A stretch of 64,000 nt of DNA from Providencia stuartii (GTDB lineage: Bacteria; Pseudomonadota; Gammaproteobacteria; Enterobacterales; Enterobacteriaceae), in contig NZ_CP119546.1 of the NCBI RefSeq assembly GCF_029277985.1, positions 620,001 through 684,000 on the forward strand. Direction: 5' to 3'. Below the pieces are notes generated by a model. It had not been told where the DNA came from. It did no database searches and saw only the letters and a list, made by a program, of their open reading frames with translations. A program made the translations under genes and the position numbers. This document shows, one piece after another, positions 42,382 to 64,000 of the stretch; within the stretch, counting starts at the first letter, position 1; every line of letters starts with the position of its first letter.

Positions 42382-43395
42382 TTAACGTTTAATCGCTTGG
42401 TAAACTTTAAATTTTCCTGTTTTTGCCAAAACCTCATGGCTACCAAAAGCCTTATCTAACATATCTGGATAAGGTAAAAAGGCATTAGCAACAATACGGA
42501 AACGCCCCCCTTTCTTTAGGTATTTTGGCGCTTGGTAAATGATATTTTCAGCCGCGCTATAGTTGGTATTTAAGCCATCATGGAATGGTGGATTGGAGAT
42601 TATCCAATCAAATTTATCATGAATATCAGAGTAAGCGTCACTTGCAATCACTTTCCCCTTCAGTTGATTCGCTTGCAGTGTTGCAATAGAAGAACGAATA
42701 GCCGCGGCGCTAACATCACTTAGGGTCAGTGTAACATCTGGGTTGTGAGTACCCACTACAGCAGCTAATACGCCATTACCACAAGCGAGATCGAGAAGGT
42801 TACCGGTAATCGGTTCATTAAGTGTCGAAAGGAGTAAGTCACTACCAATATCTAATTCATTATGGCTGAATACACCAGGTAAAGCGTGAATTTGTACTTC
42901 TTCGACTTCATAGCGACGCCACCAACGTGCAATGTCAAAGTGTGTTGGGTGCTCTAATTCACCATAATAAAGTCCACAGCGTCTTGCCGAGTCAATTTTT
43001 TGTAATGTTGCAATACCTTCCATAATAGATTCGGCACTTTTTACGCCACTACGATTTTCCCCGACGATAAAAATCTGACTGCCCACTGCGAGGTGAGTAC
43101 ATAAATCATCGAGTTGAAAACAGGCTTCTTGTTTGTTTTTAGGCCAAAAGTAAATTAAGGTATTACAAGGTTGGATAAAATCCGCATCGGCAATAGCAGA
43201 AAATTGTGCATTTTCACCCATTAAGCGACTTAGGTTTTGCCAGTGATGATATTGGTTAGTGAGAACTCGTACACTCGCGGCTTCTAAGGTTGCAGCAAAT
43301 TCATCTTGAATATCACCGGCTAAAATCACGTGTCGATCAGTAAAATGTTCAAGGTGGCGTTGGATAACTTCGCTAGCCGGTGTCAGTAGTGACAT
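42382..43395 (-). CDS. rsmC: 16S rRNA (guanine-1207-N2)-methyltransferase
   Basis: A 337-residue protein (E. coli RsmC 343) with an N-terminal degenerate methyltransferase-like domain (about 1-160) and a C-terminal catalytic domain. The S-adenosylmethionine site LLDLACGNGVLAAVVG is at about 201-216 and the catalytic motif ISNPPFHDGL at about 266-275. It methylates G1207 of 16S rRNA in the small subunit. It is divergent from holD, as in E. coli, which fixes this as the rsmC-holD-rimI region. Confidence 0.95.
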   Translation of the reverse strand: MSLLTPASEVIQRHLEHFTDRHVILAGDIQDEFAATLEAASVRVLTNQYHHWQNLSRLMGENAQFSAIADADFIQPCNTLIYFWPKNKQEACFQLDDLCTHLAVGSQIFIVGENRSGVKSAESIMEGIATLQKIDSARRCGLYYGELEHPTHFDIARWWRRYEVEEVQIHALPGVFSHNELDIGSDLLLSTLNEPITGNLLDLACGNGVLAAVVGTHNPDVTLTLSDVSAAAIRSSIATLQANQLKGKVIASDAYSDIHDKFDWIISNPPFHDGLNTNYSAAENIIYQAPKYLKKGGRFRIVANAFLPYPDMLDKAFGSHEVLAKTGKFKVYQAIKR

Positions 43396-43590
43396 ACTTT
43401 TTATCTCCTAAATACTCTTCATACGTCGAGCCGTCGCGTTGTTGACGCCTAGCTGCAATGCAAATGGTATATAAACTGAATTATTTTGCGCACACTTTAT
43501 CAGAAAATGGGGAAATAGCATTGCTATGTTGGCGCTATTAATCCGCTTTGATAAGATGTGATTGTTAATATAGCGACTGGAATAAAATTA

Positions 43591-44001
43591 ATGGCACGAC
43601 GTGACAAGCTTTTAAATCAAATGGGTATCACTCAATGGGTAGTGAGAAACCCTGCTGTATTACGCGGTGAACGTGGTGTAAGAATTCCAGATTCGACTAA
43701 GCTTATTATTATTACTGATGAGAACCTCGATTTAAACAGCCTACTGTTAAAAGATATTTTTTTAGCGATGAAAGTGTATCCAACAGATGTGGTTTGTATT
43801 AATTCGGAGCAATTGGCGATGCTTCCAACACCAATAACAATAAATTGTTGGGTATTAGGCAGCCAATCTCATCCAGAAGGGTTAAAAACAACCTTTATTT
43901 CTCCTGTATTAGATGAGCTGGCAACCAGCAATAGCGCTAAACGGGCACTATGGGAGCAGATTTACCAGTATGACGAAAATTTCAGCACTAAAGCAGTCTG
44001 A
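43591..44001 (+). CDS. holD: DNA polymerase III psi subunit
   Basis: A 136-residue protein (E. coli HolD 137). The N-terminal segment ARRDKLLNQMGITQWVVRNPAVLRGE (first 20 residues 2-21) carries the conserved helix that binds chi and the clamp loader, and LPTPITINCWVLG matches the central strand. Psi links the clamp loader to chi and single-stranded DNA binding protein. The ATG at 43591 gives the family N-terminus MARRD; an ATT at 43558 in frame is not needed. It overlaps rimI by 32 bases. Confidence 0.92.
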   Translation: MARRDKLLNQMGITQWVVRNPAVLRGERGVRIPDSTKLIIITDENLDLNSLLLKDIFLAMKVYPTDVVCINSEQLAMLPTPITINCWVLGSQSHPEGLKTTFISPVLDELATSNSAKRALWEQIYQYDENFSTKAV

Positions 44002-44422
44002 TCTTGCTACTGCGTTCTTAATTGAGAAGTTAAGTCATGATTTTCCTTGGACTGAACGTGTTTTTTATGGCAACCAAGGTGAAAAATATCATAACATAAA
44101 AATTTCCGTTAATAATCAGGTTGTTGGTTTTGCAATAACACAGTGTATCCTAGATGAGGCAACACTGTTTAATATTGCTATTCATCCTGATTATCAAGGG
44201 AAAGGTTATGGACGTCTTTTGATGGAACAACTGATCACCGATTTAGTTGATAAAGGTATTTTGACATTATGGCTTGAAGTTCGAGAGTCCAATGCAGCTG
44301 CATTGCGCCTATATGATAAATTAGGCTTTCATCAAGTTACGGTGCGTAAAGATTATTATCCTGCAAAACAAGGACGCGAAGACGCATTAATTTTGGCTTT
44401 AACTCTGTTTAATGACGAATAA
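43970..44422 (+). CDS. rimI: Ribosomal protein S18-alanine N-acetyltransferase
   Basis: A 150-residue GNAT enzyme (E. coli RimI 148) that acetylates the N-terminal Ala of ribosomal protein S18. Seen are the LSHDFPWTERVFYGNQGEKY segment at residues 20-39, the acetyl-CoA loop IHPDYQGKGYGRLLMEQLI (about 77-95) and LWLEVRESNAAALRLYDKLG (about 106-125). The ATG at 43970 gives the expected N-terminus. It overlaps holD by 32 bases in a different frame, as in other enterobacteria. Confidence 0.94.
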   Translation: MTKISALKQSDLATAFLIEKLSHDFPWTERVFYGNQGEKYHNIKISVNNQVVGFAITQCILDEATLFNIAIHPDYQGKGYGRLLMEQLITDLVDKGILTLWLEVRESNAAALRLYDKLGFHQVTVRKDYYPAKQGREDALILALTLFNDE

Positions 44423-44451: not shown

Positions 44452-44476
44452 ACCACGGCCTAATGGAGGTCGTGGT
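44452..44476. terminator. Bidirectional terminator between rimI and the 2OG oxygenase
   Basis: ACCACGGCC (44452-44460) and GGTCGTGGT (44468-44476) pair with one mismatch. On the minus strand TTTTATT follows, so it probably ends the oxygenase transcript and may also end rimI. Confidence 0.65.
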
Positions 44477-44491
44477 AAACAATCACTAATA

Positions 44492-45544: not shown

Positions 45545-45682
45545 GATCTTATTATTCCTATAATTAATTTTAATAAGTCAATAGAGATCTTATTGATAAC
45601 GAAGACTATCCAAATCATTAATTAGGAAATAATAAAAAAATAATGATTTTTTGCGAGCGCTTAATGTATTAGTGATTAATAA

Positions 45683-45718
45683 TAAAAAAAAACCACAACA
45701 TTAACATTGTGGTTTTTT
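45683..45718 (-). terminator. Terminator of the BCCT transporter gene
   Basis: ACCACAA (45692-45698) and TTGTGGT (45707-45713) form a stem. On the minus strand a run of nine T (complement of the A-run at 45684-45692) follows. A T-run after it on the plus strand also allows plus-strand use. Confidence 0.88.
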
Positions 45719-45736
45719 GTTCTCTGATGAGAAATA

Positions 45737-47305: not shown

Positions 47306-47593
47306 ACCTTTTCTCCAGTTGCTCACTTCTTTTTATGTCTTTTAATGAGAGTTGGTTGCAGGGAATGCTACTGTCGGTTTACAGAGAATATCCATGAAAA
47401 CATTGTGAGGTCAACAATTAATTAACCTAACGTTAACAATATATTTGAGAGTGATTTTATTATCTTGTTGATTTTAAATGGTTAATAAAATTATTCGAGG
47501 AGAGGTGTAATATTTTGTTTGATCATTATTGAGATCTGGATTAACATCCTCAAAAAATAATGTTAACTATAAGTTTACATAAGTGAGGTAGTT

Positions 47594-48721: not shown

Positions 48722-48746
48722 AGCAGGCCGATCAGGGGAATAATAC

Positions 48747-50195: not shown

Positions 50196-50224
50196 CCAGT
50201 AATTAAGTGAAAGAGGGAATTGTG

Positions 50225-51178: not shown

Positions 51179-51195
51179 GCTTTTTATCGACTAGG

Positions 51196-51218
51196 CAGCC
51201 CCAACATGGGGCTGTTTT
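51196..51218. terminator. Terminator between cntB and the convergent regulator gene
   Basis: CAGCCCC (51196-51202) and GGGGCTG (51208-51214) pair perfectly around AACAT, followed by four T residues. It likely ends the cnt operon and may also serve the regulator coming from the right. Confidence 0.85.
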
Positions 51219-51221
51219 CTA

Positions 51222-52151
51222 TTATTTGAGCTGGAACATCAGAAAAGGTTGTTGTTCATTATCCAGATGATAAGCGGCGCTGATATATTTTCCTTGAAAA
51301 TGAATATGATCACTGCCTTTATGATAGATGCCTTCTAGCCATGATTTGTGATTGATGGCTAATTGATAGAGTAAGCGTTGTAGCTCTAAATAATCGATAT
51401 CCGTATTCTGACTTTCAAGATTACTGGCTAATATTTCACCTGCTTTATCCGTAAAGACGACCAGATGGTCAAAGTGGGCCAATAGCACATCAAAATAGCA
51501 TTTGATTTTACGTAATCTGAGTTCAGTATTTTTACGTTCGGTATTATCAAGACTAATACCAACTAATTTAGTGACTTTACCATTGGGGCCTTTCACACCC
51601 GTTGCGCGCGATGTGATCCAGCGATATTGATCATCCCATGCAATTTTAAAATCCATCTCATGAGCACCGCCCTCGCGAATAATTTTTGAGTAACCACTCA
51701 CGAGTTTATCTTTTGATTCTTGGTTCATTAGTGCCCAAAAGTCATCATTGGTGGTGATTTTGATGCCATAAACATCTTCAACATTATCAGAATAATTGAG
51801 TTCGCCCGTCAGTAAGTCCCACTCCCAAGTGACAATTTCGGTGGATTCTTGAAGATGTACTTCATTGATATTACGTGCAATTGTAGGATGGCTTGCTGCC
51901 GGTGCGTGGTTGACATAACCATACTTGAGCCATATTTTATCGACATTCAGCAACTGAGCTAATTTTTCAAGGTTGTTCTCATCAATCATACCGCCTTTTG
52001 TCCATTTATTGACGGCTGTCCGAGAAACACCTAGTGTTTCAGCGGCTTTTAACTGGCTCATTTTTTGTTGTTTCAATAAGGCCAGCAAACGTTGTCCAAA
52101 TGTTTGCGTGTCTGTCATCGGCTCATGTCCACCTTTTATTGATTCATTCAT
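51222..52151 (-). CDS. HTH and PAS domain transcriptional regulator
   Basis: A 309-residue regulator with an N-terminal XRE-like helix-turn-helix (MSQLKAAETLGVSRTAVNKW, residues 32-51) and a PAS fold (about 104-215, including NVEDVYGI and the C-terminal VGISLDNTERKNTE), then a second PAS-like region (about 220-309). The combination suggests a soluble sensor whose PAS domain binds a ligand. It follows the LysR gene with an eight-base overlap, so the two regulators are cotranscribed. It probably governs the carnitine genes, but no direct evidence exists. A shorter start at about 52118 (MTDTQTF) is possible. Confidence 0.75.
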   Translation of the reverse strand: MNESIKGGHEPMTDTQTFGQRLLALLKQQKMSQLKAAETLGVSRTAVNKWTKGGMIDENNLEKLAQLLNVDKIWLKYGYVNHAPAASHPTIARNINEVHLQESTEIVTWEWDLLTGELNYSDNVEDVYGIKITTNDDFWALMNQESKDKLVSGYSKIIREGGAHEMDFKIAWDDQYRWITSRATGVKGPNGKVTKLVGISLDNTERKNTELRLRKIKCYFDVLLAHFDHLVVFTDKAGEILASNLESQNTDIDYLELQRLLYQLAINHKSWLEGIYHKGSDHIHFQGKYISAAYHLDNEQQPFLMFQLK

Positions 52152-53067
52152 CCTGAAATTGACTCGGTAAATGCTTTGATAAATATTGTTCTAAATTTTC
52201 AATAAAAACCCGTAAATTGGCGTTATTTCGCACTGTTCGTGAATAAACCGCGTACACGTCGGCAGGCTGACTCCATTGAGGCAGTACACGGATTAATTGT
52301 TCATTTTGGAGCTCTGGTAAGACACTCCATAGAGAGCGTAATAAGATGCCTTCACCACCAATACACCACTGTTTTGCAACGTCACCATTATTCACCATCA
52401 GCTTACTATTCGGCGTTACTGTCATACTTTCTGTTTGATGTTGTAGTTTCCACTGAGAAGGTGCCTGATTGCGTTCTTTAATCGTAATACAAAAATGTTG
52501 TTTTTCTAATTCTTGAGGGTGATTTGGGCAACGATATTTTTTTAAATAAGAGGGGGCAGCACAAAGAATACGTGTGTTTTTCGCAATACGTTTCGCGATG
52601 AAATGTTCAGGAATGATGCCGCCAATACAGATATCCAAGTCAATGTTTTCACTAATTATATCAATAGAACGATCAGTTAATGTCAGATCGATACCCAATA
52701 AGGGATAGTGAGCGCGTAATGACAAAATAAACGGGTTTAGGTAGGCGCTACCAAATCCAGTGCTACAACTTACTCTTAATTCACCGCGGATCTCTTCTCG
52801 ACAAGCTTTTAGTTCATTGTGCATGTCATTGAGTTCTTGTAGGAGTATTTCTCCACTTTTCAGGACAATGCGTCCTTCATGGGTTAAATTGATTGAGCGA
52901 GCCGCACGGAGAAATAAAGGGTGCCCTAGATTTTCTTCGAGTAATTTGATGCGTTTAGAGACATAAGCGGGTGAAACAAGCAGTTGTTCTGCGGCCCGTG
53001 AAAAACTCATCAACCGAGCGACGGTCACAAAAACTTTAATGTCTTCCAATGCAGGTAGCTTGTTCAT
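52144..53067 (-). CDS. LysR family transcriptional regulator (DmlR-like)
   Basis: A 307-residue LysR regulator with an N-terminal winged helix (ALEDIKVFVTVARLMSFSRA, residues 6-25, and SPAYVSKRIKLLEENLGHPLF) and a C-terminal periplasmic-binding-like effector domain (ELRVSCSTGFGSAYLNPF onward). It is divergent from the D-malate dehydrogenase gene with 107 bases between, the same layout as dmlR and dmlA in E. coli, so D-malate or a related acid is the likely effector. The ATG at 53067 gives a typical LysR N-terminus; a TTG at 53082 is the alternative. Confidence 0.85.
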   Translation of the reverse strand: MNKLPALEDIKVFVTVARLMSFSRAAEQLLVSPAYVSKRIKLLEENLGHPLFLRAARSINLTHEGRIVLKSGEILLQELNDMHNELKACREEIRGELRVSCSTGFGSAYLNPFILSLRAHYPLLGIDLTLTDRSIDIISENIDLDICIGGIIPEHFIAKRIAKNTRILCAAPSYLKKYRCPNHPQELEKQHFCITIKERNQAPSQWKLQHQTESMTVTPNSKLMVNNGDVAKQWCIGGEGILLRSLWSVLPELQNEQLIRVLPQWSQPADVYAVYSRTVRNNANLRVFIENLEQYLSKHLPSQFQDE

Positions 53068-53174
53068 AGTTTGTAAACCCAAAGATTACACTTCGACGCT
53101 ATACTTTATCACAGCAACTCATAAACTGGTGATCTTACTCGCTGATAAAATCACTGTTGTGGGAGATTCGTGCC

Positions 53175-54242
53175 ATGTCACAATTTAATATTGCGGTCAT
53201 TCCTGGGGATGGAATTGGAACTGAAGTTATTCCTGAAGGATTAAAAGTATTAGAAGCGGCTGCCAGTAAGCATCAAATCTCATTTAACTTTACCCATTTC
53301 GACTGGTCTTGTGAAACCTATCATCGCACAGGGCGTATGATGCCTGAAGATGGTTTAGAGCAATTAAAAAAATTTGATGCTATTTTTCTAGGGGCTGTAG
53401 GCTTTCCGGGGGTGCCTGACCATATTTCACTTTGGGGATTGTTATTGCCTATTCGCCGCGCATTTAACCAGTACGTTAATTTACGCCCCGTACGCCTATT
53501 TGAAGGAATTCAGTCGCCTTTAGCGGGTAAAAAACCGGGTGATATCGATTTTTATGTGGTACGTGAAAACGTGGAAGGCGAATACTCCGCTATTGGGGGA
53601 ATTCAATATGAAGGCACGGAAGATGAAGTCGTATCCCAGCAAAGTATTTTTACCCGTAAAGGCACTGACCGGATATTAAAATATGCCTTTGAACTGGCAC
53701 AATCACGGGAGAAAAAGCATTTAAGCTCAGCGACTAAGTCAAACGGTTTGTTTCACTCCATGCCGTATTGGGATAGTCGTTTCGCTGCGATGTCAAAACA
53801 CTATCCTGACGTTAAAGTCGATCAGTTTCATATTGATATTTTTGCCGCGAATTTGGTGAGGATGCCTGAATTTTACGATGTGGTGGTTGGTTCCAACTTG
53901 TTTGGGGATATTTTGTCTGACTTAGGACCTGCTTGCACTGGCACAATTGCTATTGCACCTTCGGCGAATATTAACCCTGAAAAACTGTTCCCATCAATGT
54001 TTGAACCTGTTCATGGCTCAGCGCCGGATATTGCGGGTAAAAATATTGCTAATCCTATCGGGACGATTTGGGCCGCGGCGATGATGATGCAACATTTGGA
54101 CTGCCCACACATGCACGATACCATCATGCATGCAGTGGAAACAGTGATAAAAGAGCGTCGCCATTTAACTCGAGATATGGGCGGTAGCGCGAGTACGCAA
54201 CAACTCGGGCAAGCCATCGCTGAAATGATTTTAGCGAATTAG
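53175..54242 (+). CDS. dmlA: D-malate dehydrogenase (decarboxylating), tartrate dehydrogenase family
   Basis: A 355-residue member of the isocitrate/isopropylmalate dehydrogenase superfamily (E. coli DmlA 361). NAD binding and catalysis are seen in IAVIPGDGIGTEVIPEG (residues 6-22), LRPVRLFEGIQSPL, VVRENVEGEYS, the metal-binding Asp in VVGSNLFGDILSDLGPA, and FEPVHGSAPDIAGK. It converts D-malate to pyruvate and CO2. In this context it would finish carnitine breakdown, since cleavage of R-configured L-carnitine leads to the R (D) form of malate. The ATG at 53175 follows GGGAGA. Confidence 0.88.
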   Translation: MSQFNIAVIPGDGIGTEVIPEGLKVLEAAASKHQISFNFTHFDWSCETYHRTGRMMPEDGLEQLKKFDAIFLGAVGFPGVPDHISLWGLLLPIRRAFNQYVNLRPVRLFEGIQSPLAGKKPGDIDFYVVRENVEGEYSAIGGIQYEGTEDEVVSQQSIFTRKGTDRILKYAFELAQSREKKHLSSATKSNGLFHSMPYWDSRFAAMSKHYPDVKVDQFHIDIFAANLVRMPEFYDVVVGSNLFGDILSDLGPACTGTIAIAPSANINPEKLFPSMFEPVHGSAPDIAGKNIANPIGTIWAAAMMMQHLDCPHMHDTIMHAVETVIKERRHLTRDMGGSASTQQLGQAIAEMILAN

Positions 54243-54480
54243 CCTTATCCTTATAATGTGGCTGAGCGTTATCGCACTATCTTGTTTACACCTGTTCACG
54301 TCAGCCTAGGGATTTGCCAACCTAGGTTGATGATGTCAGGCTTTGATTGTTTATAACCCCAAGATCTGAGAAAATAGCCGCCAATTTCGATTAACAAGAC
54401 GGATTTGCTGAGCTAAGAGCCACCTATTGCCTCTCCTAATGCATGTACAAATCTGTATTCAGACAAAAAAGAACGGTTAA

Positions 54481-54573
54481 ATGGCAGATCAGAATTTTCT
54501 ACATGAAGTCAACGCGCGCAGGACATTTGCAATTATTTCCCACCCTGATGCCGCCCAGCCTTTCAACGCTTAA
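54481..54573 (+). pseudogene. prfC: prfC 5' fragment truncated by ICE insertion
   Basis: A reading frame begins ATGGCAGATCAG and translates as MADQNFLHEVNARRTFAIIS then HPDA (residues 21-24), which is the N-terminus of peptide chain release factor 3. In intact PrfC the next residues are the P-loop GKTT, but here the frame reads AQPFNA and stops at 54571. The native gene is therefore cut after codon 24 by foreign DNA. Synteny agrees, since rsmC-holD-rimI lies upstream as in E. coli. SXT-type elements restore prfC at the other junction with an element-supplied 5' end, which should lie outside this window. Confidence 0.92.
54526..54552. mobile_element. attL: Left ICE attachment junction (attL) in prfC
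   Basis: The prfC-matching sequence GCAATTATTTCCCACCCTGA continues to GATGCC at about 54552, after which the coding frame leaves the PrfC family. SXT/R391 elements recombine within a short common core at this same place in prfC, so the core lies within this interval. The exact boundaries need the attR or an empty site for comparison. Confidence 0.8.
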
Positions 54574-54666
54574 AATCACCTTTCATTGCACACCACAATC
54601 ACATCTCTACGTACTGAATTTAAAGGCTTTTTGTCTTTTTCTCGTTTATTTGCTTTTCAATGATGT

Positions 54667-55125
54667 TCAAACGTAACCTCGGAAAGTGTGTACAAACTTG
54701 AGTACAAATTCCGTTTTAGAGGCCTTTGGCGAAAATTCCATGACACAAACCTGTCTGTAGGCCTTGTGGTTACTGGGTTTGACGTAAAAAGTACTACCGT
54801 TAAAAAGAGTCTCTTTTTTGGTAAATGTTTTCTTCTGTACCAAATTACAAAATTTAATGAGGGAGTTTATTGTTGGTGTAATTTTTGCTTTAGTGTTTGT
54901 TTTTGAAGATGCTTGAAGCGAACCAATACGGTTATTTCTAATTGAGATATCAGACTTACCTTCAAATTTAGTTGCTGTGTACACCATCATTTTGCACTTG
55001 TTTTTCGACTTGTGTGTACAAAATTTCCTGTAACTGTGTACAAACTTCCTCTTTGTTGCACTTATCTTCTGGCGATTTGACGCGAGTTCTTCTGTAGCCC
55101 TTGCTGTATAAGGGCTGAGCGACAA
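54667..55125 (-). CDS. Doubtful 152-residue reading frame near attL
   Basis: A long open frame on the minus strand reads MSLSPYTARATEELASNRQK at its start, is rich in Lys and Ser, and shows no domain, signal or membrane segment that I recognise. The repeated GTGTACAAA motifs lie inside it and translate as repeated KFVH. It has no strong ribosome site. It may be a family-specific small protein or just an open frame over an integrase-binding region; I favour the second. Confidence 0.22.
   Translation of the reverse strand: MSLSPYTARATEELASNRQKISATKRKFVHSYRKFCTHKSKNKCKMMVYTATKFEGKSDISIRNNRIGSLQASSKTNTKAKITPTINSLIKFCNLVQKKTFTKKETLFNGSTFYVKPSNHKAYRQVCVMEFSPKASKTEFVLKFVHTFRGYV
54688..55047. repeat. 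GTGTACAAA repeats near attL (candidate integrase arm sites)
   Basis: GTGTACAAACTT occurs at 54688-54699 and again at 55036-55047. Related copies are GAGTACAAATT (54700-54710), GTGTACACC (54977-54985) and GTGTACAAAATTT (55014-55026). All are in the same orientation, in two clusters about 350 bases apart. Tyrosine integrases of ICEs bind short repeated arm-type sites flanking the core, so this is a plausible set; the function is inferred. Confidence 0.5.
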
Positions 55126-55273
55126 AAGTACTTAGGGAGTTTGATGCGTCAGTTCGCGATTATCAGGGAGAGTATCGCTCTTTTGTCGATGACAAAAATC
55201 TCCTTCTACTTATATGTAATTATGTATCAGGTCATGGCTTTTGATATGTAATGGCTAATCAAATTTGTGTTAT

Positions 55274-55305
55274 TTGAGTTGCTGTGATATGTTTTTGTAT
55301 ATAAT
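55274..55305 (+). promoter_or_regulatory. Candidate promoter of hipBA
   Basis: A perfect -10 hexamer TATAAT lies at 55300-55305. Possible -35 elements are TTGAGT (55274-55279, long spacer) or TTGCTG (55279-55284, short spacer). The hipB start codon is 33 bases further on. Confidence 0.45.
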
Positions 55306-55337
55306 TATTCTTAAGTGATGCATTAAGGCGTATCGAA

Positions 55338-55658
55338 ATGAGCTATGTAACAGAGCAGATACTAGAAAGTCTTCGAGAAGCTCGGGTACGAAAGGGGTTT
55401 AGCCAGAGAGAGTTAAGTGCTCGTTCGGGTGTGCCTCAAAGCCATATTTCGAAAATCGAGTCTGGCAGTGTTGATTTAAGAATATCCAGTTTGATTGCAC
55501 TTGCCCGTGTACTAGACCTAGAGCTATTGGTTGCACCTAAAAAGTCTGTACCTGCCATCAAGTCGATCATTCGAAGTGGCCAAGGTATTAACGGCATCAG
55601 CGATGAGGGTGAGCCAATGTCGCCCGCGTATCAGTTAGAGGAAGACGACGATGACTAA
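55338..55658 (+). CDS. hipB: HipB-type antitoxin (XRE family)
   Basis: A 106-residue protein with an HTH_3 DNA-binding domain (ARVRKGFSQRELSARSGVPQ, residues 15-34, then SHISKIESGSVDLRISSL) and an acidic C-terminal tail. It should repress its own operon and neutralise the kinase toxin encoded directly downstream. The eight-base overlap with hipA indicates coupled translation. It lies between attL and xis and thus belongs to the mobile element. Confidence 0.85.
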   Translation: MSYVTEQILESLREARVRKGFSQRELSARSGVPQSHISKIESGSVDLRISSLIALARVLDLELLVAPKKSVPAIKSIIRSGQGINGISDEGEPMSPAYQLEEDDDD

Positions 55659-56865
55659 CCATGTCTCTACGCTCAACGTGTTGCTCTATGGTGAACCGAT
55701 CGCAACGATTACCAACGTGGGTAATGACAGAACACTTTTTGCCTTTATGGATTCGTACATTAATGACGAATCGCGGCCTGTGTTAGGGCTTGGCTTTAAA
55801 GATTCGCTCGGTGGCCTGCTGACTAGCTTCAAACCTACCCAAACTAAGTTAACCCCGTTTTTCTCCAACCTTTTACCAGAAGAAACCATGCGTAATTACC
55901 TGGCTGAGCGTGCTGGTGTGAACCCAGCACGGGAGTTTTTTCTATTGTGGGTGCTAGGGCAGGATTTAGCTGGCGCGATCACGGTTGAACCGGCGGATGG
56001 TGAAGCGCTGCCACCTAATGTGCATCAAGGCATTGACGATGAAACGAAAATTGAAGCGCCGATGCGCTTCTCATTGGCGGGTGTGCAGTTGAAGTTTTCA
56101 GCCGTGCAACAGGCTAACGGCGGCTTGACCATTCCAGCAACTGGTAAAGGTGGCTCTTGGATTGTGAAGTTGCCGTCATCTCGATTTGACGCTGTGCCAG
56201 AAAATGAATATTCGATGATGGAACTGGCTCGCATGTTGGGGATGGATGTGCCAGAAACGCAGCTACTCCCGATTAACCAGATTGCTAATATTCCAGCAGG
56301 CATTGGCAAATATGGTGACAGTGCGTTTGTGATCAAGCGCTTTGATCGTGTTGATGGCCAAGCGATACACATTGAGGATTTTGCGCAAGTGTTTGGCGTC
56401 TATCCTCAAGATAAATACAAAAAAGCCAGTATGCGCAATATTGCTCAGGTTATCGGCATTGAAGGTAAAGACGAAGACATTGCAGAATTTACTCGCCGAT
56501 TGGTGTTCAACACGCTAATTGGCAATGCCGATATGCATTTGAAGAATTGGTCTGTGATTTACAAAGATAAGCGCACTGCGTCTATTGCACCTGCTTATGA
56601 CTTTGTTTCAACCATTCCTTATATCCCCGATGATAGTGCATCGCTGAAGGTGAGCCGTAGCAAGAAATTCAGCGATTTCACGCTGGATGAGATATCACAC
56701 TTAGCGGCTAAAGCCATGTTGCCAGAAAAATTGGTGTTAGATACAGCCAAACAAACCGTAGCAGGCTTCCATGAGGTATGGGCGAAAGAAAAAGCGCATT
56801 TACCCCTTACTAAGTCAGTCATTGAAGCCATTGAAATGCACTTACGAAGCATACCGCTACGCTGA
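55651..56865 (+). CDS. hipA: HipA-type serine/threonine kinase toxin
   Basis: A 404-residue HipA-family kinase. After the couple_hipA N domain (about residues 1-105) the kinase core shows TGKGGSWIVKLPSSRF (ATP loop and Lys, about 168-183), ENEYSMMELARMLGM, the catalytic segment NTLIGNADMHLKNWSVIY with the HipA N-x-D pattern, and the metal-binding Asp in IAPAYDFV. In E. coli, HipA phosphorylates glutamyl-tRNA synthetase and stops growth. With hipB it forms a type II toxin-antitoxin pair that could stabilise the ICE. The actual target here is unknown. Confidence 0.88.
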   Translation: MTNHVSTLNVLLYGEPIATITNVGNDRTLFAFMDSYINDESRPVLGLGFKDSLGGLLTSFKPTQTKLTPFFSNLLPEETMRNYLAERAGVNPAREFFLLWVLGQDLAGAITVEPADGEALPPNVHQGIDDETKIEAPMRFSLAGVQLKFSAVQQANGGLTIPATGKGGSWIVKLPSSRFDAVPENEYSMMELARMLGMDVPETQLLPINQIANIPAGIGKYGDSAFVIKRFDRVDGQAIHIEDFAQVFGVYPQDKYKKASMRNIAQVIGIEGKDEDIAEFTRRLVFNTLIGNADMHLKNWSVIYKDKRTASIAPAYDFVSTIPYIPDDSASLKVSRSKKFSDFTLDEISHLAAKAMLPEKLVLDTAKQTVAGFHEVWAKEKAHLPLTKSVIEAIEMHLRSIPLR

Positions 56866-56919
56866 ATACCTAGTAGCTAGAGCGTGCATATCGATAAAGA
56901 TGGTTTAACTTAATGCGAT

Positions 56920-56942
56920 TTTACGGCGCTTTTCGCCGTAAA
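56920..56942 (+). terminator. Hairpin after hipA
   Basis: TTTACGGCG (56920-56928) and CGCCGTAAA (56934-56942) form a perfect 9-bp stem with a five-base loop, 55 bases after hipA. No T-run follows, so it may be a weak or factor-dependent terminator or a binding site. Confidence 0.5.
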
Positions 56943-57081
56943 CTGGAAATTTGGTAAACTGCACAATGATACCGGTGTCATGATAAGGCTGATCTTCTGA
57001 ACAAATCATGCATCTTTCTGACCATCAACTAGTGATGAATCAGGCGATGATAGCTTAACATTGATTTTCAGGAGAATGCAG

Positions 57082-57276
57082 ATGACAGCAGTAGCGCACC
57101 AAGTAACCCCTTTTCTAACGTCTTACGAAGTTATGGCTCGTTACCACATTAGCTATACGACTCTCTGGCGAAGAATAAAAGATGGCAGCTTGCCGCAACC
57201 TCGCATCAACCGAAATACACGAAACAAGCTGTGGCACATTGAAGACTTGGAGGAGTATGAGAAGAAAGAGGACTGA
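57082..57276 (+). CDS. xis: Excisionase (Xis, AlpA-like)
   Basis: A 64-residue MerR/AlpA-type winged-helix protein. The recognition region reads YEVMARYHISYTTLWRRIKD (residues 15-34) and is followed by GSLPQPRI and a short wing with LWHIEDLEEYE. Such recombination directionality factors bend attachment-site DNA and favour excision with Int. AGGAG lies seven bases before the ATG at 57082; an ATG at 57076 and a TTG at 57061 are less likely starts. It converges on int, with 16 bases between the two stops. Confidence 0.85.
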   Translation: MTAVAHQVTPFLTSYEVMARYHISYTTLWRRIKDGSLPQPRINRNTRNKLWHIEDLEEYEKKED

Positions 57277-57292
57277 GCCTCTTTCTTTTATT

Positions 57293-58534
57293 TTACTGTC
57301 CGAAACGCCAGTTGAATGGAAAGCCTGTCGGCTCGATGATGGTTTCTAGCTGTTGATACCAAACGTCGTAAGCATGACGCATTTCATCCAGGTACTGATA
57401 TTGGTTGTAGATAGCATCCAACCCTTTTTTGCTGTGGCCAATCATCAACTCGGCAACTTCTTGCGTGGTGATGGCTGACATTCGCGTTCGCATCGTTCTG
57501 CGAAGATCATGCATAGACCAATGTTCCATCTCAACACCAAGCGATCTGCGAGCCCAGATTTTCACATTATTAGGAATAGTGGTATCAAAGCCATTTGTGG
57601 CAAGCTCTTCTTGTCCGTTCGCGGGAAACAAGTAGGTTGATTTGCTCATCTGCATCGCCAGTTCAATCAGCTCAATAGCTGGCTTAATCAATGGCCGCAT
57701 GATCGGCGCTCCAATTTTCTCACCTTGTTTGCGGATCTCTATGGGCACTGTCCACATTGCAGATTGCAAGTCAAAGTGATGCTTTTCAGCTTGAATGAGT
57801 TCTCCCTTACGGCCTCCCAATAACAGAAGCAATTTTATGTAGATGCGATTCTTCTCAGTGATTTTTGACTCATGCAAATAGCGCCAAAGTATCCTGATCT
57901 CGTTGTCATTTAGCACCCGAGTTCGTTTGCCTTTCTTACCGCCAACCTTCTTTGCTGTGATCCCAGCAGCAGCGTTAATTTCCAAGATTTGTTCATCAAT
58001 CAGCCAGTCATAGAATTTATGCAGTACAGACACTAGGCGCTCTGTGTTTGACGGAGACGACTCTGAAACCTCACGAAGACAGTTTCTTAAGGACAATTCA
58101 TTGATGTCAGTTAATGGGTACTTGCCAAGTCTGGGCAGCAAATATATTTCACTGCTACGTTTTTGGAAGTGCCACGTTTTCTCCTTTAATCCTTGCTTAC
58201 CGGCAGAGTCTATCCAGTCTCGAAAAATCGATTCGAAGCTTTGGTTGGCAGAATACTTAGCCCGTTCCTGCTGAAGGTAGAGCTTAGGGTTTCGGCCTTG
58301 ATCAAGTACAGCCCTTAACCTATCCAGCTCATTCCTAGCTTCAGCAAGCTTCATAAGTGGGTAAGTACCTATGTCTACCCGCTGTTGCTTGCCATCGAAA
58401 CGATAACGAAACTGAAAAACAATTTTGCCCTTGGGCGATACCCGAGCACTTAGCCCATCTCGGTCGGCTTTTACTACGGTTTCTTTTGCTTCTTTATTTA
58501 ACCTGGCATCGAGCCAGCTAACTGATAACGCCAT
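57293..58534 (-). CDS. int: ICE tyrosine recombinase (integrase)
   Basis: A 413-residue integrase with an N-terminal DUF4102-type arm-binding domain (about residues 1-90), a core-binding domain (about 95-185) and the catalytic domain. Active-site residues are visible as R242 (GGRKGEL), H342 and R345 (MHDLRRT), H367 (IGHSKK) and the nucleophile Y376 (DAIYNQ). It catalyses site-specific recombination between attP and prfC. It ends the srpM-srpR-int gene string, one base after srpR, so it can be cotranscribed with the partition genes. Confidence 0.95.
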   Translation of the reverse strand: MALSVSWLDARLNKEAKETVVKADRDGLSARVSPKGKIVFQFRYRFDGKQQRVDIGTYPLMKLAEARNELDRLRAVLDQGRNPKLYLQQERAKYSANQSFESIFRDWIDSAGKQGLKEKTWHFQKRSSEIYLLPRLGKYPLTDINELSLRNCLREVSESSPSNTERLVSVLHKFYDWLIDEQILEINAAAGITAKKVGGKKGKRTRVLNDNEIRILWRYLHESKITEKNRIYIKLLLLLGGRKGELIQAEKHHFDLQSAMWTVPIEIRKQGEKIGAPIMRPLIKPAIELIELAMQMSKSTYLFPANGQEELATNGFDTTIPNNVKIWARRSLGVEMEHWSMHDLRRTMRTRMSAITTQEVAELMIGHSKKGLDAIYNQYQYLDEMRHAYDVWYQQLETIIEPTGFPFNWRFGQ

Positions 58535-58535
58535 G

Positions 58536-58805
58536 TTATAAGCCCAGCCCTAGTTTTGATTTTAATGATTGTTTACGTGATTCTGCTTTGGGTTCTGGCG
58601 CTGTACTGACAGAAGTAATTTCACCATCTGGTGCATGGCCATCCACCGGTGCAGATGTCGTTGATATATTGGGTTGGCTCATGTGAATTAACCCAAAGGT
58701 GGCCAGCATCCGCAGACGCTCAGCGCGTTCCCGTGGCGGCGTCTTTTCCAATTCTTTGAGTAGTTCAGGGTGGCTCCCTGGGGGAATGTTGACGACAACT
58801 CTCAT
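58536..58805 (-). CDS. srpR: SrpR-like partition protein
   Basis: An 89-residue protein between srpM and int. The N-terminal half (VVVNIPPGSHPELLKELEKT, residues 3-22) looks like a ribbon-helix-helix type DNA-binding segment, followed by a helix rich in Arg and Glu and a low-complexity tail (STAPEPKAESRKQSLKSK). In SXT/R391 elements the gene in this place encodes the adaptor that joins the SrpM filament to srpC. Gaps are two bases to srpM and one to int. Confidence 0.78.
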   Translation of the reverse strand: MRVVVNIPPGSHPELLKELEKTPPRERAERLRMLATFGLIHMSQPNISTTSAPVDGHAPDGEITSVSTAPEPKAESRKQSLKSKLGLGL

Positions 58806-58807
58806 AA

Positions 58808-59782
58808 TCAGGCCCCATAAAACCAGAAGCCTCGGACGTTCGCCAAAACAGACTGTTCCGGCACGATGATTTTGCTTCGTGAAAAAATCTCCTTGGCCGC
58901 TTCCTTATAAGCCAAGGCTCCACCTCCGGCGATCAATACCAAGTCCGCATTGATGCTTTCGTCGCGCATAGATTGGCGCATGGCTGTAAGAGCAACAGGC
59001 GCTACCTTTTTCATGGCAGCATTCAGATAAGGTGAAATATCGACTTTTTCTCCAAATAGCAGGACCTGCAAGTCGCCTGTTCTCATGGCTTTTTCAAGTC
59101 GATCCATACCTACTTTGGCACCGTGATCTTCTGAAATCAGCTTATCAATGGTTTCCAGTAGCACGGACATTGCCTGAAGGCTGGTTCCTGAAGAGCTGTA
59201 GCGAATTTCTCCGGCCTCAAGAGCAACCCAATCAACAGAAAAGAAGCCGGGGTCTATGACGACGACGCGACCTTCTTCAATCAAGCCCAAATCACCACCT
59301 GTTTGAACCAGATCCATATAGGCACCGGCAGGCTGCGGCAGCACTTTGACGTCATGAACGGTGATGCTGCGCTTTGGCGTCACTTGATGGACACCTTTTA
59401 AACGCTGTACAAGGTCAGACTTACGTTGTGGTTCATGAAACTGGGAAACCGGTAATCCAGTGACAACCAAATCGATGGACTCAGTTTCAGCCATTAACAA
59501 GGCGGCATGAAAAAGCGCCTTATAGGTTTTTGTGGTGGGATATTCTGGGTGAAGTTCCCGTTCCCAACCTTGAAGGCGTCCAGCAGGCACACCAGCGGCC
59601 CAACGCTCATTATCGACAGAGACATACAAACAAGTTTCATCATCGCCTCCACCGATACGCTCCGGCATACGATCCGCTGGACCGGCACCCGCAGGTAGAA
59701 TAATGGTTTTCGGTTCACTACCTGATTGGCCAATTGCCAGCTTCAGGTTTGAGTAACCGATATCTACGCCTAGTACAAACAT
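58808..59782 (-). CDS. srpM: SrpM, ParM-like actin ATPase for ICE partition
   Basis: A 324-residue actin-like ATPase. Phosphate loops are seen as VLGVDIGYSNLKLAIG at the N-terminus and VVIDPGFFSVDWVALE in the middle, and the adenosine motif as VLIAGGGALAYK near residue 290. ParM-type proteins polymerise and push plasmid copies apart. In this ICE family, srpM helps keep the circular replicating form. The ATG at 59782 has AGGAG six bases upstream; a longer frame from 59803 lacks this. Confidence 0.88.
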   Translation of the reverse strand: MFVLGVDIGYSNLKLAIGQSGSEPKTIILPAGAGPADRMPERIGGGDDETCLYVSVDNERWAAGVPAGRLQGWERELHPEYPTTKTYKALFHAALLMAETESIDLVVTGLPVSQFHEPQRKSDLVQRLKGVHQVTPKRSITVHDVKVLPQPAGAYMDLVQTGGDLGLIEEGRVVVIDPGFFSVDWVALEAGEIRYSSSGTSLQAMSVLLETIDKLISEDHGAKVGMDRLEKAMRTGDLQVLLFGEKVDISPYLNAAMKKVAPVALTAMRQSMRDESINADLVLIAGGGALAYKEAAKEIFSRSKIIVPEQSVLANVRGFWFYGA

Positions 59783-59803
59783 ACTTATCTCCTGTGCACT
59801 CAA

Positions 59804-59910
59804 AGTGCTCTAACGGTTTTCAATCAACCGCGCTGTTCACGCTTGGGCATTTCCAAGTGCTCTGGCGGTTCACTCAAATGTCATTATCAGGATTCGGTGC
59901 ACTGGCGGTG
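59804..59910 (+). repeat. srpC: Three iterons upstream of srpM (candidate srpC centromere)
   Basis: AGTGCTCTAACGGTT (59804-59818), AGTGCTCTGGCGGTT (59856-59870) and GGTGCACTGGCGGTG (59896-59910) share the core GTGCWCTRRCGGT. They are direct repeats 52 and 40 bases apart, starting 21 bases from the srpM start. Position and form suit a ParR-type centromere and autoregulatory site. Confidence 0.65.
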
Positions 59911-60009
59911 GGCAGAAAGGTGACAAATCCTTTCATCTATCTGCCTATTGCATTTTCGCAAAAGTATGAGAATAGGCTCTGTTTGGCGGTGGATGACTGA
60001 GCCAAAAAA

Positions 60010-60240
60010 ATCGAGACGCCAAACGTCGTTTGCATTCTGGCCTGAACTCGCCAAACGGTTTGTATCTTCATGGCGATACGTCTTTTCAGGCATTTATATG
60101 TGAAATCGGGCTGTATCCCTTGTCAGGTATGGGATTGCGCGAGTTGATTTATATCGAGACGCCAAACAGTGATTGTTACGGCAGTTTTACGTTTGGCGTT
60201 TCGATCCAAAAGCCAAACGGATAGTAGTTTTGGCTTTTGG
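60010..60240. other. oriT: Origin of transfer region with inverted repeats (candidate oriT)
   Basis: The region upstream of mobI contains ATCGAGACGCCAAAC twice (60010-60024 and 60153-60167). The second copy pairs with GTTTGGCGTTTCGAT (60191-60205) at 14 of 15 positions. CAAACGTCGTTTG (60020-60032) and CAAACGGTTTG (60052-60062) are perfect palindromes, and CCAAAAGCCAAA (60206-60217) pairs exactly with TTTGGCTTTTGG (60229-60240). In SXT elements oriT lies directly upstream of mobI, so the nick site should be within or near these structures. Confidence 0.75.
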
Positions 60241-60246
60241 GGTTAA

Positions 60247-60690
60247 TTGGATGGGGAAATTGGTTTGGTAGAAATCGTCAATGAACAATGGAAATCAGAA
60301 GTATCAAATTTATTGCAGCAAGAAACGGACAGGCTAAAAGCGCTGGCAAGAGCTGAAGTTGATGACTTTTGGGTTACCCATTACAAGGTTCGTGAGAATG
60401 AGCCCTTTAAAGACTGGGGGCTGCTTGGTGTCCGTATCAGAGACTTTAAGTATGGCTTTGGCATAGAGTGGTACATCAACAGCTTTCACGGTCAACGAGG
60501 TAAGCGCGTAGTCTTTAGTAAAGGACTGCGTATCTCAAAGACGAAGCTGAGATACTCATTTTTGGACTGCCAAGGTTTGGCCAAAGAATGGGAGTTAGCG
60601 CTGGCTATGGAGAAAGAGGAATTTTTCAGTGATATTCGACGCCAGGTTGATAAGCTCAACATGCTGCGTCGCAGAGTGAATGCCTACTGA
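60247..60690 (+). CDS. mobI: MobI-like auxiliary mobilisation protein
   Basis: A 147-residue soluble protein rich in charged residues (EVSNLLQQETDRLKALARAE at residues 19-38; DIRRQVDKLNMLRRRVN near the C-terminus), with coiled-coil character at both ends. I see no enzyme motif. In the SXT/R391 family the gene at this location, next to oriT and rumB, encodes MobI, which is needed for transfer together with the relaxase TraI encoded elsewhere. The start is a TTG at 60247 with only a weak GGGGT upstream, so the N-terminus is uncertain. It converges with rumB, ten bases apart. Confidence 0.75.
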   Translation: MDGEIGLVEIVNEQWKSEVSNLLQQETDRLKALARAEVDDFWVTHYKVRENEPFKDWGLLGVRIRDFKYGFGIEWYINSFHGQRGKRVVFSKGLRISKTKLRYSFLDCQGLAKEWELALAMEKEEFFSDIRRQVDKLNMLRRRVNAY

Positions 60691-60700
60691 GTTAACTGCG

Positions 60701-61969
60701 CTACTTAACTCGCGGTAATTGGTCCCAGCGTGTTGTATAAGCGGGAGATAAATGCTCTCGCTTCATCGACCAATCTTTCTTCGTACCTTGTCCAGCAAAG
60801 AAAACCTTTCCGGCACCGCTTTGGTTAATGGTGTCCAATACAGACATTAACTGCTGGCTATTAGAGCGGGTCGATACGTCATCGAATAGTCCTGGTTGAA
60901 ACATACCAGGATCGTAAAAGTCAGACAGCATGACGCCCGCTTTGGCATAACGAAAACCATCCTTCCAAATCCGCTTGAGTAAGTGATTGGCCAGCTCGAT
61001 AAAGTCCCGCGTATCGCAACTGGGGATCAGCAACTCACCCGATGCAGAGTTGCTGTACTGCGGCTCGTTGTCCTTAAAGGGGCTGGTACGTATAAACACG
61101 GTCATCACTTTGGCTTGCTGCTGTTCTTTGCGAAGCTTCTCCGTGGCGCGGGTTGCGTATTCGCATATGGCTTCACGTAAGAATTCAAAGTGCGTCACTT
61201 TTACGCCAAATGAACGGCTACAGACAATTTGTTTCTTAGTTGGCGGGATCTCTTCAAGTTCAATGCACGACTCACCATTGAGCTCTCTGACGGTTCTCTC
61301 TAAAACCACCGAAAACTGGTCTCTGATGGCTCTAGGTGAGGCATTGGCTAGGTCTAAGGCTGTAGTGATACCCAACGCATTTAATCGCTTAGAAAGCCGC
61401 CTACCAACGCCCCAAACATCATCAACCGGGACTAATGCGAGCAATCGACGTTGCCGATCTGGATTGGTCAGGTCTACAACCCCTTGAGTAGCGGGATATT
61501 TCTTAGCGGCATGGTTAGCCAGCTTGGCGAGTGTTTTAGTCGGTGCAATGCCTACACAGACGCTGATCCCAATCCAGTGACCTATGCGCTCTCGCACTTG
61601 TTGTCCGAACTCGACAAGAGATATGGCAGACTCAATACCGGTTAAGTCCAAAAACGCTTCGTCAATCGAGTAAACCTCTACTCGTGGTGCCATCTCTTCC
61701 AAAGTGCGCATCACTCGACTGCTCAAATCTGCGTACAGCGCATAGTTGGACGAGAATGCCAAAATACCATGGCGCTGCATTTCAGCTTTGATCTGAAAGA
61801 CGGGTACGCCCATTTTAATACCGAGTGACTTAGCTTCACGTGACCGTGCAACCACGCAGCCGTCGTTATTGGACAGCACCACAACCGGTGTATCTTTTAA
61901 ATCAGGACGAAACAGCTTCTCACAACTGGCGTAAAAGTTGTTGCAGTCCACCAAGGCAAATACAGGCAT
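60701..61969 (-). CDS. rumB: Error-prone DNA polymerase V subunit RumB (UmuC family), intact
   Basis: A 422-residue Y-family polymerase (UmuC 422). Catalytic carboxylates lie in FALVDCNNFYASCEKLF (residues 3-19) and YSIDEAFLDLTG (about 99-110), with LANHAAKKYP and the helix-hairpin-helix region VDDVWGVGRRLSKRLNALGI between. It forms translesion polymerase with processed RumA. The ATG at 61969 gives the UmuC-like N-terminus and lies seven bases after the rumA stop. In SXT this gene is split by an antibiotic-resistance insertion; here it is whole. Confidence 0.93.
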   Translation of the reverse strand: MPVFALVDCNNFYASCEKLFRPDLKDTPVVVLSNNDGCVVARSREAKSLGIKMGVPVFQIKAEMQRHGILAFSSNYALYADLSSRVMRTLEEMAPRVEVYSIDEAFLDLTGIESAISLVEFGQQVRERIGHWIGISVCVGIAPTKTLAKLANHAAKKYPATQGVVDLTNPDRQRRLLALVPVDDVWGVGRRLSKRLNALGITTALDLANASPRAIRDQFSVVLERTVRELNGESCIELEEIPPTKKQIVCSRSFGVKVTHFEFLREAICEYATRATEKLRKEQQQAKVMTVFIRTSPFKDNEPQYSNSASGELLIPSCDTRDFIELANHLLKRIWKDGFRYAKAGVMLSDFYDPGMFQPGLFDDVSTRSNSQQLMSVLDTINQSGAGKVFFAGQGTKKDWSMKREHLSPAYTTRWDQLPRVK

Positions 61970-61976
61970 GGGATCG

Positions 61977-62426
61977 TCACGACTTACGGCGCATGTTTCG
62001 CACCACATTGGTGACCACACCAAATATCTCTAACTCTGTCCCTTCAGGAATATGAATGGGCTCATACGCCTGGTTTCTTGGGATCAGCTTTACGCACGGC
62101 CTTAGTTGAAGTTCCTTTACCGTGAGTTCACCATGGATTCCCGCGATGACAATGTCACCGTGTTCTGCTTGGACAGAGCGATCAACCACCAAAATATCAT
62201 CTGGGTGAATCCCAGCATCAATCATTGAATCACCTTCAACACGCACAAAGAATGTTGCAGCTGGTCGCTTGATGCACAGCTCGTTGAGGTCGAGCGTTTG
62301 CTCAACATAATCCTGCGCTGGTGAGGGAAAACCAGCAGAAACACGTTCCATGAACAATGGAATACGAAGGCGCTTGGCTTTGATGAAGGCAAGTACGCCG
62401 CTACGGCCTATCAGCGAGACACTCAT
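61977..62426 (-). CDS. rumA: RumA, UmuD-like self-cleaving mutagenesis protein
   Basis: A 149-residue UmuD/LexA-family peptidase S24 protein. The cleavage site appears as Ala31-Gly32 in VSAGFPSP, the nucleophile is Ser67 in EGDSMIDAG and the general base is Lys104 in LTVKELQL, spaced as in UmuD. RecA-promoted self-cleavage produces RumA', the partner of RumB in polymerase V. GAGG lies six bases before the ATG, and a LexA box lies 27 bases upstream. It is the first gene of rumAB. Confidence 0.94.
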   Translation of the reverse strand: MSVSLIGRSGVLAFIKAKRLRIPLFMERVSAGFPSPAQDYVEQTLDLNELCIKRPAATFFVRVEGDSMIDAGIHPDDILVVDRSVQAEHGDIVIAGIHGELTVKELQLRPCVKLIPRNQAYEPIHIPEGTELEIFGVVTNVVRNMRRKS

Positions 62427-62452
62427 GACGAACCTCGAAAAAATAGAATTAA

Positions 62453-62472
62453 TACTGTTTGTTTATACAGTA
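62453..62472 (-). promoter_or_regulatory. LexA (SOS) box upstream of rumAB
   Basis: TACTGTTTGTTTATACAGTA contains CTG-N10-CAG with the flanking TA pairs, very close to the consensus TACTGTATATATATACAGTA. It lies 27 bases before the rumA start and predicts induction of rumAB by DNA damage. Confidence 0.93.
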
Positions 62473-62602
62473 TCTAATGCTATGCTGATTTCTACAAGTA
62501 AAATTGTAGGTAAAACTGGTGTTGTTCGAGTAAGACGCTGTGTTGTCGGTGATTTATTTTTTGTGTTGAAAAACTAGATGTGGGGATAGCTCGCCCTCGT
62601 CA

Positions 62603-62934
62603 AAGCCTGCAAGGCTTGGACAATACTGCTTCTGCCTACTGCTCTTGTTTCTGTTACTGATCCTGTTACTGCTACTGGTTAACGCATGGGTCAAGTAACC
62701 GTCAGACAAGGCTTGTTGAACCCTTTGCAAAGGGTTTAAAAACAGTTAGTAAAATTCTGCTTCGTATTGAATTTACTGGCTTAAAGCGAAGTCAGGAGCA
62801 TCTTTAAAATGCTCAGTCGAACTCAGTTCAAGCCTTTTTCAACCGTTTGAAAAGGGGTTGGCTAAGCCATACGTAAAGGGTATCGGTAAGGGTTACCTAA
62901 ACGGTTTGGCTAAGGCTTTCTGAAAGGCTTAGCC
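62603..62934. repeat. Cluster of hairpins between rumA and the exonuclease gene
   Basis: Within about 330 noncoding bases there are at least five stem-loops: AAGCC/GGCTT at 62603-62617; the perfect palindrome AACCCTTTGCAAAGGGTT at 62719-62736; GAGCAT/ATGCTC at 62796-62814; CCTTTTTCAA/TTTGAAAAGG at 62833-62855 (imperfect); and a 13-bp stem with one mismatch at 62908-62934 (GGCTAAGGCTTTC/GAAAGGCTTAGCC). No T-runs follow. Apart from the rumAB promoter, nothing else is recognised between 62427 and 63065. Confidence 0.7.
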
Positions 62935-63065
62935 AAAGCCTTCATACATGGGTTCACCCAGTAGAAAGATTAAAAAAACGCTGAGGTATCCAAGGTGCAT
63001 TTTGTACAACCTGTGGCACAGTGAAATAACCCAAAGCGAACAACAGAATTGAAGAGGAACCATCA

Positions 63066-63974
63066 ATGACAAGAGCCCCTGCGCCATTTCCGCTAGAGCG
63101 CCTCGCGGATATCCCAGAAAGACCAGAAGATTTTAGATTGCTGGAACGCATTCCTTTAACGCGTGAGCCGCAGTCCTGGCCACTTGAACTTTCTCCTATG
63201 GTCGGTGATGAACAGCCGATGGTGCTGCTCGATACAGAGACAACCGGACTGTCTGCCGATGACGAGTCCATTATTGAGCTTGGTATGGTTAAGGTGCTTT
63301 ACAGCCCCTCTGCTCAGCGGATTGTGTCGATTGTTGATGTGATCAGCCTGTATGAAGATCCCGGCAAGCCAATCCCCGAGCTGATTACCGAATTAACCGG
63401 TATCACTGATGAGATGGTGCAAGGCCAGCGCATTGATGATGCTCTGGTAGCGAGTTGGTTATCCGATGATCCGCTGGTGGTTGCACACAATGCGCAGTTT
63501 GATCGTCCTTTCTTTGAAAAGCGGTTTGCCGCATTAGGCCATCTATCTTGGGCCTGTTCAGCTAGCGGCATAGATTGGAAAGCACTGGGCTTTGAAAGTC
63601 GGAAACTTGAGTACCTGCTGCTTCGCTTAGGTTGGTTCTATGAAGGACACCGAGCTGCAACCGATTGTTTGGCGATGGCCTGGTTGTTTCAATTGTTGCC
63701 CGAGTCCGTTGCAAACTTGTTGTCTGAAGCAGACAGGCGAACTGTGTTAGTTCGTGCGTTTGGTGCGCCGTTTGACGTAAAGGACTATTTAAAAGAGCGT
63801 GGTTACCGCTGGCATGACGGTGTTAAAGGTGCCAACAAACATTGGTGGCGCGAAATCAGCGAAGACGAGTTGCCGCAGGAACAAACTTACCTGGATGATT
63901 TGTATCATCGTGGCTCAGAACATGCCCACTATGACTACAAAGATGCCCGCAATCGATTTAAAGCTTTGTCATAG
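63066..63974 (+). CDS. DnaQ-like 3'-5' exonuclease
   Basis: A 302-residue protein with a DEDDh exonuclease domain like the polymerase III epsilon subunit. Exo I reads VLLDTETTGL (D56, E58), Exo II VVAHNAQFDRPFF (about residues 139-151) and Exo III HRAATDC (about 198-204). A C-terminal extension (about 230-302, GAPFDVKDYLKERGYRWHDG onward) is tryptophan-rich and not part of the exonuclease fold. Genes of this type are common in SXT/R391 backbones; the role may be in element replication or repair. GAGGA is upstream of the ATG. Confidence 0.85.
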   Translation: MTRAPAPFPLERLADIPERPEDFRLLERIPLTREPQSWPLELSPMVGDEQPMVLLDTETTGLSADDESIIELGMVKVLYSPSAQRIVSIVDVISLYEDPGKPIPELITELTGITDEMVQGQRIDDALVASWLSDDPLVVAHNAQFDRPFFEKRFAALGHLSWACSASGIDWKALGFESRKLEYLLLRLGWFYEGHRAATDCLAMAWLFQLLPESVANLLSEADRRTVLVRAFGAPFDVKDYLKERGYRWHDGVKGANKHWWREISEDELPQEQTYLDDLYHRGSEHAHYDYKDARNRFKALS

Positions 63975-64000
63975 CCCCTTGCATATTTGAAAACCTCTGG

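Follow-up and report, generated by a model that had tools for sequence, protein, structure and literature searches.

The window analysed here is a 64,000-nucleotide stretch of a Providencia stuartii contig (NZ_CP119546.1), in which the start of the host gene for release factor 3 (RF3, PrfC) is interrupted by an ICE of the SXT/R391 family. Host genes lie to the left of the interruption and the left part of the ICE lies to its right, and the following features were recognized:

42382..43395, minus strand, rsmC of the host (NCBIfam NF007023, 537 bits, cut-off 295)
43558..44001, plus strand, holD of the host (NCBIfam DNA polymerase III psi models, best 140.9 bits, below the curated cut-off of 162)
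43973..44422, plus strand, rimI of the host (NCBIfam NF007025, 223.8 bits, cut-off 173)
54347..54375, plus strand, conserved promoter-like block TTGTTT-N17-GAAAAT, putative promoter role by conservation
54481..54573, plus strand, truncated prfC, a 30-codon ORF made of the host start and an ICE-encoded tail and stop
54532..54548, plus strand, attL copy of the 17-bp att core, positioned by comparison, with length and form as in PMC6541609
54538..54545, plus strand, host/ICE exchange tract from comparison of attL, attR and empty site
54546..64000, no strand, left part of the ICE, continuing beyond the window (matches to ICE DNA at 54516-54794, 56975-61760 and 61733-64000)
55338..55658, plus strand, HipB-like antitoxin gene, cargo (Pfam HTH_3; weak NCBIfam couple_hipB match below cut-off)
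55651..56865, plus strand, HipA-like toxin gene, cargo (Pfam HipA_C, 172.6 bits, and Couple_hipA)
57082..57276, plus strand, xis, putative recombination directionality factor by position and identity, the name following passages of PMC4344509 and PMC4542580
57293..58534, minus strand, int, SXT-type tyrosine recombinase (Pfam PF13356, PF00589)
58808..59803, minus strand, ParM/StbA-like gene (Pfam ALP_N; ParM/StbA annotated at the equivalent position in E. coli XH1815)
60247..60690, plus strand, mobI (Pfam MobI, 82 bits)
60701..62023, minus strand, umuC-like (rumB) gene, uninterrupted (NCBIfam NF002955, 666 bits)
61977..62426, minus strand, umuD-like (rumA) gene (NCBIfam NF007621, 166.7 bits)

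The ORF at 54481-54573 is translated as MADQNFLHEVNARRTFAIISHPDAAQPFNA*, and the intact 529-codon prfC of G001, the nearest relative among the genomes compared, begins MADQNFLHEVNARRTFAIISHPDAGKTT. The sequence-only reading had counted 24 intact prfC codons, which is correct for the protein (24/24 residues identical to G001 PrfC) but not for the DNA, codons 22-24 being those of the ICE. Three bases within these codons differ between the window and G001 (54540 C/T, 54549 T/C, 54552 C/A), and the first differing codon is codon 25 (54553). Since both base 54552 and codon 25 depart from G001, the earlier placement of the frame's departure from the family at about 54552 was right, as was the loss of the P-loop, GKTT being absent after residue 24 in comparison with G001 PrfC. 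A tblastn search of PrfC against the whole window placed residues 1-26 at 54481-54558 (E 1.9e-10); its two remaining hits were non-significant (E 2.2 and 10). With this as the sole significant match, no intact prfC follows the junction immediately to the right within the window.

The window and G001 are 99.7% identical from 40770 to 54551 (13.8 kb compared, 40770 being the start of the fetched G001 stretch and not a break in the alignment), and the alignment then ends. G001 contains no match to the window integrase at E 1e-20. Considering the near-identity that stops at the junction, the intact prfC and the lack of an integrase match, G001 represents the empty site, and the comparison with an empty prfC of a related strain that had been proposed as a check is thereby provided. 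A chance match was rejected because the identity to G001 stops at the core. The locus thus shows an insertion in the 5' end of prfC with a 17-bp core and an empty counterpart in G001. The host genes rsmC, holD and rimI were also named correctly as lying upstream, with NCBIfam support that is below cut-off for holD, yet they do not adjoin the junction, for rimI ends 10 kb before prfC. The interval holds an unassigned ORF, a BCCT transporter, a Rieske-type oxygenase, an aldehyde dehydrogenase, a reductase, two regulators and a tartrate-dehydrogenase-like gene, and this whole gene cluster belongs to the stretch common to the window and G001. The host cluster at 45737-54242, with its transporter, oxygenase, dehydrogenases (the last of tartrate/malate type), reductase and regulators, presumably resembles a carnitine or betaine breakdown set. 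Elsewhere, a tRNA scan found two tRNA-Leu genes at 41993-42229, distant from the junction; an Rfam search of 52000-64000 gave no match; and ORF translations point to an apparent fimbrial cluster (subunits, usher, chaperone) at 23110-29984.

To the right of the junction, the order xis, int, ParM-like gene, mobI and rumBA is that of the left-end core of type I SXT/R391 elements. Int is 94.6-100% identical to its counterparts in 54 loci (at least 97% for 51/54), among which the named SXT-type loci include that of M. profundimaris D104 (L044). The ORF at 57082-57276 gave only a sub-threshold HTH_17 match in Pfam and is 95-100% identical to the xis-position ORF beside int in the SXT-type loci that have one. 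The earlier identification of xis and int downstream is thus borne out, int by its tyrosine recombinase domains and xis by this identity. SetR gave no significant match in the window (E 2.2), and tra and setCDR are expected beyond 64000. The hipAB cargo occupies the stretch between the ICE matches at 54516-54794 and 56975-61760. HipA recurs at 93% identity or more in 11 of the 54 loci, and the HipBA-like cargo slot between attL and xis is vacant in many relatives (attL-xis distance 458-603 bp).

Two of the closest known systems, both type I elements at prfC and both compared directly, are R997 and the XH1815 element of E. coli. They share target, core, int and xis with the window (95.8% DNA identity over 56975-61760), but lack hipAB, with an attL-xis distance of 603 bp against about 2.5 kb in the window. 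The ICE of P. rettgeri PROV023 (L028, L063), from the same genus as the window host, has the same kind of junctions and, unlike the window, a left slot without hipAB (attL-xis 460 bp). ICEMprChn1 (M. profundimaris, L044) carries a HipA 98.3% identical to that of the window, whereas host and prfC differ. According to portions of PMC2791158 and PMC5122569, a hipAB-like pair lies between attL and xis in R391, ICEVchMex1 and ICEMprChn1, as in the window; for R391 and ICEVchMex1 the likeness is to the published description.

The left junction was compared across the 54 Int-bearing loci. An ICE left end was found in 45 and was readable through in 44; nine loci had none, and L011 was too short. Of the readable left ends, 42/44 lie in prfC, which, together with the Int identities, agrees with the earlier assignment of the window to the left junction of an SXT/R391 element at its usual target. 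In all 42 other prfC left junctions codons 23-24 read GATGCC, and the same tail frame runs to a stop that the ICE supplies in frame at codon 31. T stands at 54546 in 41/42, L049 having G instead. Sequence upstream of the 54546 region varies with the host. Family-wide, then, ICE DNA starts at or before 54546, and codons 22-24 are therefore already ICE-derived.

The two left ends outside the prfC reading, L023 and L051, show that the prfC target is not invariable. In L023 (Colwellia chukchiensis, 6350-7129, minus strand), the ICE has its left end inside an acyl-CoA-dehydrogenase-like ORF (...DAIIVHPDAAQPFNA*), and the prfC start of the same genome (L099) is without an ICE right end; L023 is a secondary insertion site with an RF3-like motif. 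In L051 (Agaribacterium haliotis), a transposase-like ORF, IS5-like by eye, adjoins the ICE left end near 20674, and the right junction at prfC of that genome (L101) is normal, so that L051 looks like an IS insertion at attL.

The right junction was examined in 38 prfC loci paired with left ends, namely 36 from 38 genomes searched (two gave no PrfC match, and locus L034 was not included) plus E. coli XH1815 and P. mirabilis H110. The ICE right end stands upstream of prfC in 36 of these 38 loci. Reading through the core was possible in 37 (L107 was unreadable), and an ICE-encoded N-terminus of the MANQDF type starts prfC in 35/37, L105 being a divergent copy. The non-ICE starts are those of L088, from a metagenome-derived Methylophaga, and L099, the Colwellia with its ICE elsewhere. 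In every ICE-bearing readable pair except L097 codon 19 is ATC, the left flank in the L097 genome being itself ICE-like; the third base of codon 22 is variable. In E. coli, the left end, and the right end with its prfC feature, occur in the same 7/5426 genomes, and the right ends of two of these, XH1815 and cq9, each lead into a 1590-base prfC. Within the genus of the window host, two places matching the 5' end of prfC were found in 4/24 genomes: G194, G199 and G201 have left ends with the tail and stop and right ends with SetR followed by the rebuilt prfC, and the fourth (G206) was assigned to PROV023 by coordinate match. In PROV023 about 105.9 kb separate the two prfC start codons. The element-encoded PrfC N-terminus that had been predicted thus holds in relatives, including PROV023 and three more same-genus genomes.

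Left ends are constant from about 54546 and right ends through codon 19, which places the exchange in about 54538-54545. The claim that the exact site of insertion is visible is upheld as to the junction but not as to its position, since the exchange lies there and not at 54552. A narrower estimate comes from E. coli, where C600 and XH1815 supply an empty site plus left and right ends; C600 served as the empty reference for XH1815 because we take EC600 to be derived from C600. In this comparison the exchange is confined to five bases equivalent to 54541-54545. PMC8386438 describes XH1815 as the descendant of a laboratory transconjugant. Exceptions at the tract edges are L076, whose right side has a non-ICE codon 18, and L040 and L053, with CAT at codon 21 on both sides.

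Base 54540, the third base of codon 20, behaves differently. It was scored in 33 pairs, the 38 minus L018, L023, L051 and L052 (not clean) and L036 (right side unreadable), and was identical on both sides in 26/33, which is inconsistent with a simple single exchange. A reciprocal heteroduplex model fits XH1815, with the host base on the left and another base, taken as that of the ICE, on the right, and it was rejected because it fails across the set, where 26/33 pairs have the same base. In G194, G199 and G201 the equivalent base on both sides is absent from close empty relatives. The window has C at 54540, against T in G001 and in the four genomes that match next best (G185, G193, G205, G197); this C may be the base of the ICE or a host variant.

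These results are best explained by an SXT/R391 ICE at prfC that cut off the host start on the left and rebuilt RF3 at a distant right junction, to which we assign a probability of about 0.97. Recombination between attP and attB, catalysed by Int, would have taken place within the conserved RF3 motif I-I-S-H-P-D. On the left, as the window shows, some 20 host codons keep the native upstream region in front of them, and the ICE end contributes the short tail and stop of the 30-codon ORF. At the right junction, as in relatives, the remaining prfC would be preceded in frame by 19 ICE codons (MANQDFLNEINKRRTFAII), with a leader and an upstream region from the ICE ahead of them. Because this start would be joined in frame to the rest of the gene, RF3 would still be made, with 5/19 N-terminal residues differing from those of G001, again as shown in relatives. 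Excision of SXT/R391 elements by Int and Xis, which restores attB and attP, is established. PMC7251087, with reference to Hochhut and Waldor 1999, gives a 17-bp site in the prfC 5' end as the insertion target of type I elements and states that prfC is restored to function by integration and encodes a hybrid PrfC. Other papers print att cores of the same form as that of the window (PMC6541609), describe an imperfect 14-bp repeat (PMC5890775) and treat Int, Xis and their control by SetCD (PMC4344509, PMC4542580).

The right junction of the window element lies outside the window, which leaves room for a stranded remnant whose right end was lost after insertion, with a host lacking RF3 and an element unable to excise. 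We consider this quite improbable, since the left part looks whole, with no interruption in the ORFs of int, xis, the ParM-like gene, mobI and the umuDC-like genes, and same-genus carriers possess the right junction. Marginally less probable still is that the element belongs to another ICE family, or to a tandem array, and has only its left end in common with SXT/R391. Tandem arrays have been published (PMC5122569), and the left flanks of L052 and L055 (S. decolorationis and I. loihiensis SN11) resemble the ICE right end. However, the gene content (int, xis, mobI, umuDC-like genes) is that of an SXT/R391 element throughout, and the flank left of the window junction is native G001-type chromosome, which makes this junction the outer left end. 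For L052 and L055 themselves, tandem insertion and native similarity stand as two alternatives. An assembly chimera of a Providencia contig with ICE DNA is hardly credible: nothing was found in its favour, and host and ICE DNA meet at the very att core that serves 42 other prfC junctions, same-genus genomes included. The SXT/R391 insertion at prfC stands as real but ordinary, a clean example of a known integration.

The right end that rebuilds prfC resembles a chromosomal prfC start. The pattern TTGTTT-N17-GAAAAT occurs in 20/43 native prfC upstream regions against a mean of 0.37 and a maximum of 2 in shuffles, the loci being non-independent. With a conserved spacer (AAGATC...), the block recurs upstream of prfC in several genera and also within the ICE right end. 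A consensus scan of 54200-55400 found neither promoter nor terminator, fewer than in shuffles, and it is thus by conservation that a promoter role is proposed.

Among ICE-free genomes, G151 matches the ICE right end most closely, its prfC 5' end being 86% identical over 312 bp from the setR stop to codon 19, with 91.7% over the last 213 bp and 19/19 residues. The ICE-free G138 follows with 83.6% over 225 bp, an Idiomarina left flank with 80.6% over 201 bp and the window's own prfC 5' end with 72% over 196 bp. An 18-kb stretch around the G151 prfC contained no further match to the ICE end pieces tested, SetR had no match in the 3.2-kb G151 locus, an integrase search of G151 returned a single distant match (27%) away from prfC, and G138 gave no integrase match. 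A wider search for a native source matched 13/369 genomes of the class, the best being G001 at 72% and the rest extending over 33-91 bases. From these similarities, the right end may be a prfC 5' module, comprising promoter region, leader and the first 19 codons, that was captured from the chromosome of a host resembling members of the GTDB family to which Idiomarina belongs, a proposal that we regard as an even bet. G151 could instead hold an old ICE remnant, because only 3/8 genomes of its genus match, two of them weakly, and the match, strongest in its middle part, falls off markedly towards either edge.

At this locus the integration of an SXT/R391 element into a Providencia-like host is resolved cleanly to the base, and natural junction pairs narrow the exchange to 5-8 bp of the RF3 motif; in relatives RF3 persists as a hybrid. 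Should the right end be a captured prfC promoter and leader, a host translation factor would be under control sequences that travel with the element, and if the whole module was captured, every transfer would also swap the recipient's RF3 expression control and N-terminus.
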